Shown piece after piece: positions 30,357 through 44,392 of a stretch of 64,000 bases of DNA (position 1 is its first letter; each line of letters starts with the position of its first letter). Both the position numbers and the translations under genes were made by a program. The stretch comes from Blastocystis sp. Blastoise. Its lineage: Eukaryota > Sar > Bigyra > Opalinata > Blastocystidae. The stretch covers positions 1,054,001 to 1,118,000 of the forward strand of contig JBBPEB010000034.1 in the NCBI GenBank assembly GCA_039096225.1, read 5' to 3'. The notes under the pieces were generated by a model. It saw only the letters and a list, made by a program, of their open reading frames with translations. It searched no databases and was not told where the DNA came from.

Positions 30357-33215
30357 ATTTAGCAGCCTAACTGAGCCGTTTCAAAAATTTCAAATGGCTG
30401 TAACTTTGGTGCATTTTATTGTAACGGCAAGATTTTTTGTAATTTACAAGATATTTATGACAAAAATCGATACTCAAAATTTGATTGGTCAATTTTGAAA
30501 ATCCAAGGAGAAAATCGTCTTTTAAGAAAAAAGAATATTCGACATAAACAGTTTTGTGGAGCCATTAAAAATTGTGTTTTGGTGCATCCAATTATATTTA
30601 TCTTACTTTTTCATTCATTATACTTACTTTTGTGATTTATAATTTATATTGATAAAAGAGTCTTTTTTATATTTATTTTATTTATTACTCATCTATATTA
30701 GTTAAACTCGATTCATAATTTTTTTTTTGCAAAAATAATAAATTTTGACGAAGTTATTAAAATAAAAGTAAAAAACATAAAAATAAAATGAAAAAATCAA
30801 CATATTTATTTTTGTGATTCGTCGTTCTCACTCATTAATAACTTTTTAATTAAAATAAATTTATTTTTGTATTAATATGATGTTAAACTAAATTCATTTT
30901 TTTTATTTTGTCAAAACTCACACTTTTAATATTTGGATGTACAACTTTTGTTCTTATTTTCTTTTGAAACGGTATTTATGAGTATTATACAAGTGTGATA
31001 TCTAAATCAAAACAAGAATTTCTTAATATAAATTCAAGTTCACTGTATGTTGTTACAGATTTGTTTTTCATTTTGTTTAATAACATTATACTTGAATGTA
31101 TTGACCCTTAATATAGTCATAAAAGTTGTATTTCTTAATTTTTAAATCTTTTAAACTCATTTTACAAATAATTCCTTTTTTTCATTTATTTAAAATAAGG
31201 GATTCAATATATTAAGTACATTTTATTACACTACTGGCACAATAGTATAACATATCAAAACAACAGAAGAAATAAAAAAGGTCGAGTGTATCTCGAAATG
31301 TTAAAGTCTATTTAAACAATTTAATTTTGTATTATTTCTGTGTATATGGTCATGTAATACTCAGATATAAAATATTGGTCTTAAATAGTGATATTATTTT
31401 TTATAATGTGAAAAAACACCAAATAATGTCAACTCAATAAACTTTAAAATGTTTCAATTACTATATATAAACATTCATAAACACTATACATCACTCATTC
31501 ACAAAAGTTAAGACAACATGTTAAACTGATACTGACAATGTTTGCTTTAAAAAGTTAGTTATGAGTCACTATGAGTATAAAATGTTATAAATAAGCTTTA
31601 AATAAATAAATTTGTTTTTAATTGTCTTTAATTAGTGAAATAAATCGTTTAAAAAAAGAAAACATTTTTGACACTATAGTTTATTTTGACAATTTTTCCA
31701 TCAATATTAATTTTTAAAAAATAAATAAAACTTATATATAAACTAGACAACCTATAGTTTATATATTTATAAAAATATTATCAAAATATAAAATAACTTT
31801 TGAGATAAAAAATTATATATGCAAAACATAAAAAAATTATTTTTTGAAAAAAGGATATACTTTATAACATTAATTTCTCAGTCAATATTTAATTATTTTA
31901 AATAATTTTAACAAATTAATATAGAGAATAATATATATTAACGATATAAATTTTAACATTTAAAATTAATTAAGAAATGAGTTCAGTAGAGTCAATAGTA
32001 TAACATGTTAAAAAACTGAAAATTGAAAAATCGTTTTTCTAAAAATTTTCTGAAAGTTGACAAATCAAATTCATATTTTACAACTATTTTTTATATATTT
32101 GAAGACTAGACCTTATATGTATTGCATATCTCAAAATAATAGTCAAAATTGGGTTAGACGAGTGTATGAGTATATGCACATGTTGACTCAAAATTTTATA
32201 AAAAGTAGTTCAATGTGTCCTAAATCACATATCATGACAATTATAAAAATATTATTACTTTATAATGAGTTTAAAGTGTAAAATAATTTTGAATTGTCTG
32301 TTTGACTGTCTTAAGTGAAGAGATTCAATACACTTTTTATAAAAATGAGTATTAGAGTGTTTAATGTTTATAATAATAAAAGAATTGTTTGAAATAAAGG
32401 TGGTTGTGTGTTTGACCAAAATGTTAAAATGAGTCTATTTTTAAAAAATGGTTAGAATAAGAAAGTATTGAGTGTTTTTGGAGTATTTTATATTAAAATC
32501 TACAATAAATAAACATTTTAAGTTGTTTAAAAATTTGATTCTTTAGAATTACAATAGTTAAGTCAAGAGATTCAAGTCACTTTTTATAAAAATAATAAAT
32601 AGACTTATTATAGAATATAAAATATTAAAAATTAGTTTAATTAAATGTAGTTGACTGTTTGATAGGAATGTTAAAATGGGTAAAAAGATTTTAATTGTTT
32701 CTAAAACCGTATAATACGTTTATTTATGACTAAATACAAAACTATTATAGTTTAAAGAATGTTTTTTGTCTTTCAAAAGAACTCATTTTTTGTAATTGTG
32801 ACTTTAAACAAAAGAGATTCAAGTTATTTTTTATAAATAAATATAACAAATTAAATATATATGTATATGAATATAAAATTAGTTAAAATAAAAGTGAGTA
32901 TATGTATTTAAAAATGTTATAGTCTTTTAGAGTTTTTTTAAAATGACTAATTTGTTTTATAAACGATATTTTATATCAATAATAAAAGTTTTCAAAGTAC
33001 TAAATATATTTATTTATGAAATGTAGTGTATTCTTTGATTAATATTTTAGTTTTTAGTTTTTATTTAATGAAATAGTCATTAATGTTATTATTAAATTTT
33101 AATTTATTATGAACTATTAATTTAAAATAATGAAAAGATATTTTTTTATAAAACTATTTTTTTATTCTTATCTAGATTCAAGCGTAGGCTGGCGTAGCCA
33201 GTCGTGAAACGCTTG
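30357..33215 (+). mobile_element. Repeat element copy A, 2.86 kb, non-coding
   Basis: First of three closely similar copies. It begins ATTTAGCAGCCTAACTGAGC and ends with a 37-nt stem-loop (33179-33215) finishing CGCTTG. Neither strand has an ORF that could encode a transposase, polymerase or recombinase; the longest frames are about 75 aa and not conserved between copies. The 3' half has three degenerate ~240-bp direct repeats carrying AGAGATTCAA followed by an A/T-rich tail, and GTTAAAATG. A shows more differences from B and C than those two show from each other. Repetition, sharp shared ends and presence at unrelated sites argue for mobility; the class and the autonomous partner are unknown. 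Confidence 0.8.
33179..33215 (+). other. Terminal stem-loop of element A
   Basis: Outer 7-bp stem CAAGCGT/ACGCTTG, internal loop A opposite GTGAA, inner 7-bp stem GGCTGGC/GCCAGTC with one G-T pair, apical loop GTA. It is strikingly GC-rich in an AT-rich element and identical in copies B (36051-36087) and C (40223-40259, other strand). Confidence 0.85.
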
Positions 33216-33224
33216 TATATATTA

Positions 33225-42900: not shown

Positions 42901-44392
42901 AATATTCTTTTTTCTTAAAAGACGATTTTCTCCTTGGATTTTCAAAATTGACCAATCAAATTTTGAGTATCGATTTTTGTCATAAGTATCTTGTAAATTA
43001 CAAAAAATCTTGCCGTTACAATAAAATGCACCAAAGTTACAGCCATTTGAAATTTTTGAAACGGCTCAGTTAGGCTGCTAAATTAATATATATAATATAT
43101 AATAATATTATTGAGAGAATATAATATAAAATAAACTAATAATAAAAGGATATATAGATTTCAGTTTTAGAGCAATCATTAGGACTAATTCTACTTTGAA
43201 TAGTACAATATATATAAGAATTAATCATATCAATATCTTCTTCTTCTTGATTTAGAAGACGTACATATAAATGACCATTAGAAATCTCACGAAAGAAACG
43301 AATGGATAATGTATATTGTGAAGTAGAATCCATAGTGATTCTATAACTAAAGAATTGATCGGATTCACCTGGAAATAAAGGAATATCAAATCCTTCTGAA
43401 GATGTCACATATAATTTTATTATAAAATTATTCTGATTCACTAAATTATAATAACGATCTCTTACCATTAATGTAAAATCAACACTTCTATATAAAGGAA
43501 TAATTGAATAGATAGTAGAGATAGAAGAGTAGAGATAAGAAGGAACATCACTATATACTGATAATTGGAATGGAGTATTAATCACAGATAAACCATTCAC
43601 AATCCATCTAAAATAAACAGATTCTGAAGTATAAGAAACAAATTGATATATTAATTTTTCATGTAATGGATCTTCTTTTGAAGTAAAGAAATAAGATTGA
43701 TCTGTATTTAATAGAATTGTTCCTGTAAATAATGTTGTAGGAACTGTATTATTATATTCATCACGAAAATATATTTCAAAATCATGAATAATACCAACAC
43801 TAGTAGTTCTATTTGGTGGTATAAAAATAGTATTAGAAGGAAGAAGAGAACCATGAGTTACTGTCCATGCAGATAAAAATGGAGAATAATGAATAGGAAT
43901 ACCATCTACTGTTATATAAATATCATATATAGCTACATAGATAGCTTTTAAATATAAATAAAGAGAAGAAGAAGAAAGATAGGAGAAGGTATATGTAGGA
44001 AGAAATGGAACTATATATATATATAGAATAATAATAATAAATAAATAAAATAAATACCTTTTCGATCACTAATAAAAGTGACTTTGATTCGTTGTTCGAG
44101 ATCGATATCTATAGGTATTTGTCCACATCGACTATTAAGGAATAATTGAAGTGGATATATAGATCCTGCAGTACTCGTGAAGAAGAGAGGATATTCAGAA
44201 GGAGTAATAGTAGTAGAAGTTAAAGGAATCGTTGATACTGTAGGAGATATCAATTGGATGCCCTAATAGATAGATAGATAGATAGATAGATAGATAGATA
44301 GATAGATAGATGAATATATATATATATATATATATATATATATATATATATATATATATATATACAACAAAATTTGTTATTTTCGTTTTTAA
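36906..44392 (-). CDS. Large protein of filamin-type/Ig-like repeats, many exons, interrupted by element C in an intron
   Basis: Numerous short exons separated by GTATAT...ATAG introns. The translated exons repeat a filamin-like pattern: a D/R-D-x-Y-x-N strand (VRDRYYNL, FRDEYNN, TRDIYDDG, KDIHNNE), a Y-x-F/I-x-Y strand, and an N/D-G-x-x-I-x-x-S/T-P-F motif (VDGIPIHYSPF, VNGLSVINTPF) before each new domain. Extracellular Ser/Thr-rich segments and the lack of an actin-binding domain suggest a surface or secreted protein rather than a cytoskeletal filamin. The first clearly supported exon is about 44363-44392, joined to 44058-44264 (VGIQLISPTVSTIPL). The last coding exon ends near 36906, but its terminal splice is ambiguous. 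Between 43158 and 40213 the coding sequence joins across an intron (FYY to YPISFAGTL) that contains element C. Family assignment is by motif; function unknown. Confidence 0.6.
40223..43083 (-). mobile_element. Repeat element copy C, 2.86 kb, inverted, inside an intron
   Basis: Reverse complement of copies A and B with both ends intact: the stem-loop CAAGCG...CGCTTG at 40223-40259 and CTGCTAAAT at 43075-43083. It lies inside the filamin-repeat gene in the same transcriptional orientation as that gene. The coding frames on either side can be joined by an intron with donor GTTTATTT (about 43156) and acceptor TTTTTACAG (about 40195), so the copy probably sits in an intron and need not inactivate the gene. 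Confidence 0.8.
44265..44363. repeat. (GATA)n plus (TA)n tract in an intron
   Basis: About eleven GATA/AGAT units (44267-44311) are followed by a run of TA dinucleotides (to about 44363). On the minus strand this forms an intron of the filamin-repeat gene ending TATTAG before GGCATCCAATTG. Confidence 0.85.

Follow-up and report, generated by a model that had tools for sequence, protein, structure and literature searches.

Non-coding 2.87 kb repeats of Blastocystis sp. Blastoise as probable non-autonomous Helitrons with ends related to those of a RepHel-encoding element

Three copies (A, B and C) of a non-coding repeat of about 2.87 kb lie within one stretch of 64,000 nucleotides from Blastocystis sp. 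Blastoise (assembly GCA_039096225.1, contig JBBPEB010000034.1, positions 1,054,001 to 1,118,000 of the forward strand; hereafter the window, on contig 26). With a probability of roughly 0.93, we consider these units to be non-autonomous Helitrons whose most likely source of mobility is a RepHel protein acting in trans, that of a longer element of the same genome, which we call gamma. Judged by their ends, which are related to those of gamma, the units appear to belong to the Helitron superfamily, where they form a family that is new but of a known kind and whose termini are mildly unusual. An initial annotation had seen no standard class to which the repeat could be assigned. That view is no longer tenable, given that neither terminal inverted repeats (TIRs) nor long terminal repeats (LTRs) were found, that insertion takes place between A and T with no target duplication, that a hairpin lies 12 nt from the 3' end, and that RepHel-encoding relatives have related ends.

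Three copies of one unit

The sites of A, B and C all fall inside 13 kb on one contig, two copies being direct and one inverted, and the copies have common sharp ends, as the initial annotation had described. Its 3' ends (33215, 36087 and 40223) were exact; its 5' ends lay 9-12 nt too far inside, the actual ones being 30345 for A, 43095 for C and, as far as visible, 33216 for B. The copies and their parts are as follows.

30345..33215, forward strand: copy A, predicted non-autonomous Helitron of 2871 bp that probably went into the 5' end of copy B
33216..36087, forward strand: copy B, predicted non-autonomous Helitron with 2872 bp visible; TTA, its first three bases, probably at 30342-30344, left of A
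40223..43095, reverse strand: copy C, predicted non-autonomous Helitron of 2873 bp, 99.9% identical to B, flanked by A and T
30345..30365, forward strand: 5' terminus of A, TTATATATATTAATTTAGCAG, with 11 type 1 left ends genome-wide
33179..33215, forward strand: 3' terminal hairpin of A, with an inner stem that stops 12 nt from the terminus and a 7 bp outer stem in which the terminal CTTG takes part
36051..36087, forward strand: 3' terminal hairpin of B, from the genome scan for the hairpin and from folds
40223..40259, reverse strand: 3' terminal hairpin of C, from the genome scan
34286..35315, forward strand: segment of B that matches the 5' region of gamma at 86% (unit positions 1074-2103)

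Unit positions are counted from window position 33213, the unit being 33213-36096. Copies B and C are 99.9% identical, and A is 94.0% identical to each of them (in blocks beginning 2 nt earlier for A and C), which bears out the earlier ranking of B and C as the closest pair. The identity between A and B is uneven: in steps of 200 columns it is 96-99% over the first 1.2 kb and 85-96% beyond. Parts of the 3' half of the unit consist of diverged internal repeats, about 245 bp apart. No coding frame was detected, the longest stop-free stretch in any frame of the three copies being 86 codons, and the earlier description of the unit as non-coding stands.

Among the inverted repeats of at least 60 nt in the window, none links both ends of one copy (shorter arms were not searched), and no LTR was found for the units. 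Together with the lack of a target duplication, the lack of such arms led us to reject a TIR transposon or a miniature inverted-repeat transposable element. Stop codon reassignment of the ciliate type was also considered and rejected, given that frames of 3229 and 1362 amino acids are open under standard stops and that the host is Blastocystis. Rfam gave no match in the window at gathering scores, nor in 29950-36400 up to an E-value of 0.5. On either side of the A/B pair, at 36120-36195 and 30025-30090, are stretches that look tRNA-like by eye (words resembling A and B boxes, then a run of T), where ARAGORN and Rfam report none. Copy C has pieces of reading frame on both sides, on its own strand (37394-44065, reverse strand), and apparently occupies an intron or a gap within a single host gene.

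A dispersed family with conserved ends

The AT-rich genome of Blastocystis sp. Blastoise, a stramenopile, has 33.3 Mb in 34 contigs. At least 74 matches to the unit were found, at least 41 of them 1.4 kb or longer. A search with the left 1.07 kb gave 20 matches, seven of which were short and of low complexity; this part of the unit is present in 11 elements, nine uninterrupted and two interrupted. The 3' hairpin (30 nt, up to three mismatches) occurs at 81 sites, 76 of them exact, and the reversed pattern, used as a control, at none genome-wide. Since 76 of 81 hairpins are exact while the bodies of copies other than C differ from B by 6-12%, the hairpin is more conserved than the body. These dispersed sites are what the initial annotation had named as support for mobility, and its proposal of a complete mobile unit moved in successive events gains from them. 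Neither chance nor a single segmental duplication can explain the family.

The 5' motif TTAATTTAGCAGCC, with AT(C/T) and seven bases ahead of it, was found at 34 sites: 11 of type 1, the type of the window (ATATATA), and 23 of type 2 (AATATCC, once AATACCC). This pattern overlooks a common type 2 variant that has other bases after TTAATTTAG. A left end of that pattern lies within 4.4 kb upstream of 20 of the 81 hairpins, which gives elements of about 2.9-3.1 or 3.9-4.2 kb; the remaining hairpins probably have variant 5' ends, or are explained by nesting or loss. A 9.3 kb stretch on contig 15 (C15:168655-177920, L053) splits a unit at position 937-940, and in it no transposase frame was recognized by eye. 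A pair of copies on contig 4 (L006 and L007) lies in duplicated surroundings.

Ends and target site

The pattern used to read left flanks required TT or TC as the first two bases of the element and left the preceding base free. Of 33 distinct left flanks in the loci covered, 31 end in A and one in T, and the last is another element's CTTG. In an independent alignment of type 2 5' ends, A precedes 21 of 22 and T precedes one. The right flanks that were read are part of the 94 known 3' ends (81 with the hairpin of the unit and 13 with that of gamma), and all 64 distinct ones start with T; genome-wide, a single hairpin end without a following T was seen among at least 79 that share the same 24-mer, and it was not one of the 64. 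Insertion is thus between A and T.

Another copy of the same family is interrupted on contig 5 by a stack of elements 6.2 kb long. When the two outer junctions of this stack are compared with uninterrupted relatives, the site before insertion reads AACA|TGTT and has neither lost nor doubled any base, and because this empty site joins directly we conclude, from this single site, that insertion makes no target-site duplication. The flanks of copy C have no duplicated bases in common.

The target preference extends beyond the two central bases. After two flanks that are the 5' end of another element had been dropped, TAA starts at right-flank position 7, 8 or 9 in 44 of the remaining 62, against an expectation of 14% from the window. 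Sets of three adjacent offsets that share none of these positions have TAA in at most 13 of the 62, the highest being the first three. Beyond A and T, a preference for TAA at 7-9 nt in the 3' flank is visible in these counts.

RepHel-encoding relatives

The initial annotation had suggested a search for a longer relative with the same ends and a reading frame. Gamma is such a relative, with a hairpin that is related, not identical, to that of the unit. It was recognized among 51 matches to Helitron_like_N genome-wide, most of which we grouped as alpha, beta and gamma by match range, score and overlap with alpha copies, without a tree; no assignment was made for four domains containing a stop and for one fragment. 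Gamma has 13 RepHel domains and 13 hairpins of the form CAAGCGTAGGCCTGCGTA(G/T)GCAGGCCGTGAAACGCTTG followed by T, one of which is further changed. In 12 of the 13 copies the hairpin is about 3.1 kb behind the RepHel domain, and in the thirteenth it is 23 kb away. Five copies have an exact type 2 5' end upstream, for a total length of 13.29-13.65 kb.

The gamma RepHel piece (1318 amino acids) matches PF14214 and PF05970 far above cut-off, and it matches Helraiser (7lcc_A) at 6.8e-221. The residues needed in Helraiser are present in it, namely the histidines of the H-x-H motif (HUH), both tyrosines and the Walker A lysine. For two further frames in the 5' region of gamma, no Pfam family scored above cut-off. 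The first 2.2 kb of gamma are 85-88% identical to the sister passengers, the type 2 members of the family. Over bases 1229-2255 of gamma (L054 orientation) the identity to unit positions 1074-2103 is 86%, and over the last 48 bp of unit B the match to gamma is 85%. Unit positions 1-1073 differ from both gamma and the type 2 elements, though the terminal TTAATTTAGCAGCC is common to all, as if the 5' part had been exchanged.

Alpha RepHel has 1559 amino acids. Its 19 nearly full-length copies are at least 99% identical, and 17 of them are without a stop, which suggests very recent activity. Some alpha copies lie less than 30 kb from the start of a contig (contigs 7, 10, 11 and 20). One alpha copy with an open RepHel of 1559 amino acids is nested in the unit on contig 13 (L052:324-5003, reverse strand; C13:640700-655580). 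We considered this RepHel as the autonomous partner of the unit and rejected it: it has ends of its own (TC...CTAG, at unit position 434, between A and T) and is a separate Helitron. A 463 amino acid frame with a DDE_1 domain (L051:4240-5631) inside this alpha copy is apparently a further nested transposon.

A possibly paired terminus and a proposed mechanism of transposition

The GC-rich terminal hairpin that the initial annotation had reported is real. In both hairpin types the inner stem has seven possible pairs and stops 12 nt before the terminus; in the window type, one of these pairs is G-T. At two of the inner pairs the types differ in both bases, and pairing is kept. The outer stem, CAAGCGT with ACGCTTG, takes in the terminal CTTG. 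When folded as single-stranded DNA, the window type has a z-score of -3.5 (2 of 200 shuffles as good) and the gamma type one of -4.8 (0 of 200). By analogy with Helraiser, as described in PMC4778049, we suspect that the hairpin serves as the stop signal.

In this scenario, a gamma RepHel would nick between the flanking A and the TT (or TC) of the 5' end, and its helicase would peel one strand away, with a presumed polarity. The 3' hairpin may halt the helicase, and the strand would then be cut after CTTG. Either the strand or a putative circular intermediate could be joined into a new site between A and T without duplicating the target; sites with TAA 7-9 nt into the 3' flank would be preferred.

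Probable insertion into the 5' end of another copy

The arrangement of A and B may reflect the same preference. The left flank of A ends in ...TTATTA, and on the right of A, copy B resumes as TATATATTAATTTAG, short of exactly TTA. This is best read as an insertion of A between TTA and TATATATTAA within the 5' end of B, although the TTA repeats in this flank permit alternative alignments. The junction of TTA and TATATATTAA in the unit's own 5' end is itself a match to the preferred target, which would account for the position of copy A within the first bases of copy B. A second precise junction, CTTG followed by TTAATATCC, was found on contig 20 (L089), and can be explained either by insertion between the A and T where an element itself begins or by a tandem that arose from a circle. 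We tentatively raise the possibility, less probable than not in our estimate, that this Helitron lineage combines a two-tier terminator, in which the cleaved CTTG is paired in the outer stem, with a RepHel that reads an extended target also held just inside its own 5' end, such that elements would insert into their own termini and form head-to-tail stacks.

Weighing the evidence

Several observations weigh against the assignment to gamma-mobilized Helitrons. The 5' terminus is TT in 31 of the 33 distinct left ends and TC in only two, and the 3' terminus is CTTG in 80 of the 81 hairpin matches and CCTG in one, instead of CTRR. What gamma and the unit share is limited to TTAATTTAGCAGCC at the terminus, unit positions 1074-2103 and the final 48 bp; the first 1.07 kb of the unit is absent from gamma. 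No exact 5' end was found within 20 kb for eight of the 13 gamma copies, and of three of these that were inspected, one has a 5' end preceded by T rather than A, and two have none in the stretch read. No RepHel has exactly the unit's hairpin as its own end; among the 51 domains, just one has such a hairpin within 8 kb downstream of it on its own strand, and this one is the nested alpha copy. The outer stem is invariant between the two hairpin types and has only its complementarity behind it, and the single-stranded fold of the window type breaks the inner stem at the G-T position.

Some of this could suit Helitrons moved by the RepHel of alpha or beta. Alpha is more numerous, looks recently active and has a copy inside the unit on contig 13, and no gamma copy has the first kilobase of the window unit or exactly its hairpin. 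We nevertheless consider an alpha or beta source unlikely: alpha (TC...CTAG, with the 5' end TCATTACTA) and beta (CTAG) end in other hairpins, as read in one copy of each, and among the RepHel groups the TTAATTTAG 5' end together with the CAAGCGT...ACGCTTG 3' end was found in gamma alone.

Explanations outside the Helitrons fare much worse. The first right flanks, with CTTG, variable bases and often TTAA, resembled the core site of a tyrosine recombinase, and an element of the Crypton or DIRS type might integrate by crossover within so short a spacer, in which case the meeting point of A and B would be the junction of a circle. Once more flanks were read, the breakpoints came down to a single one between A and T with no spacer; the empty site on contig 5 is joined directly, and the longer relative encodes RepHel, all of which makes a recombinase highly improbable, although no search of the genome for tyrosine recombinases was made. 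We give as little weight to the view that the three blocks are not mobile units but arose by segmental duplication or as artefacts of the assembly. It could draw on their proximity within 13 kb of one contig, on the 99.9% identity of B and C and on the duplicated surroundings of some other copies (the contig 4 pair). However, the flanks of the copies differ, starting precisely at the unit ends, and these ends are present again at dozens of sites that are unrelated to each other, spread over many contigs. Non-autonomous Helitrons dependent on gamma remain by far the most probable identity of the units.

Comparison with known Helitrons and implications

There is a close resemblance to Helitron1, the group of Helraiser, Helibat and the plant Helitrons. 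As in that group, gamma RepHel has an HUH motif, two tyrosines and a PIF1-type helicase, and the units insert between A and T without duplication and have a hairpin 12 nt from the 3' end (10-12 nt in Helitron1). By strict motifs the units are not canonical Helitron1, because their 5' end is mostly TT rather than TC and their 3' end CTTG rather than CTRR. The outer stem able to pair CTTG and the preference for TAA 7-9 nt into the 3' flank also set them apart. In PMC4778049, CTTG ends are reported for some insertions of Helraiser end mutants and also with maize Helitrons, and a preference for AT-rich sequence is described, most strongly on the 3' side.

With Helitron2, the Helentrons and their HINE (DINE) derivatives, the units have in common non-autonomous derivatives, terminal hairpins and tandem insertions. 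According to PMC5148889, tandem insertions occur among those elements, their terminal inverted repeats are asymmetric, and they go into TT or between TTTT and T or C. By target, the units are not Helitron2 or Helentron elements, because they insert between A and T, and only one of 33 left flanks ends in T. The similarity between the two ends of the unit, seen by eye, is very short (GCCGTTTCA and GCGTTTCA). Compared with the alpha and beta Helitrons of the same genome, gamma RepHel falls in the same superfamily, and the units differ by their 3' termini and hairpins and, from alpha, by the 5' end. Among the literature titles and abstracts listed on Blastocystis with Helitrons or transposable elements, none dealt with these elements, which is no proof of their absence in print.

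A repeat that had been left unclassified is thus resolved, and the genome of Blastocystis sp. Blastoise emerges as one that contains RepHel genes of three or more groups, some copies in each group having an open frame, and dozens of passenger copies. The gamma family breaks both the TC and the CTRR motifs that were first used to define Helitrons, and because both are broken, finders that demand TC and CTRR would miss it. The extended target motif and the paired terminus are concrete, testable features of how RepHel may recognize ends and targets.

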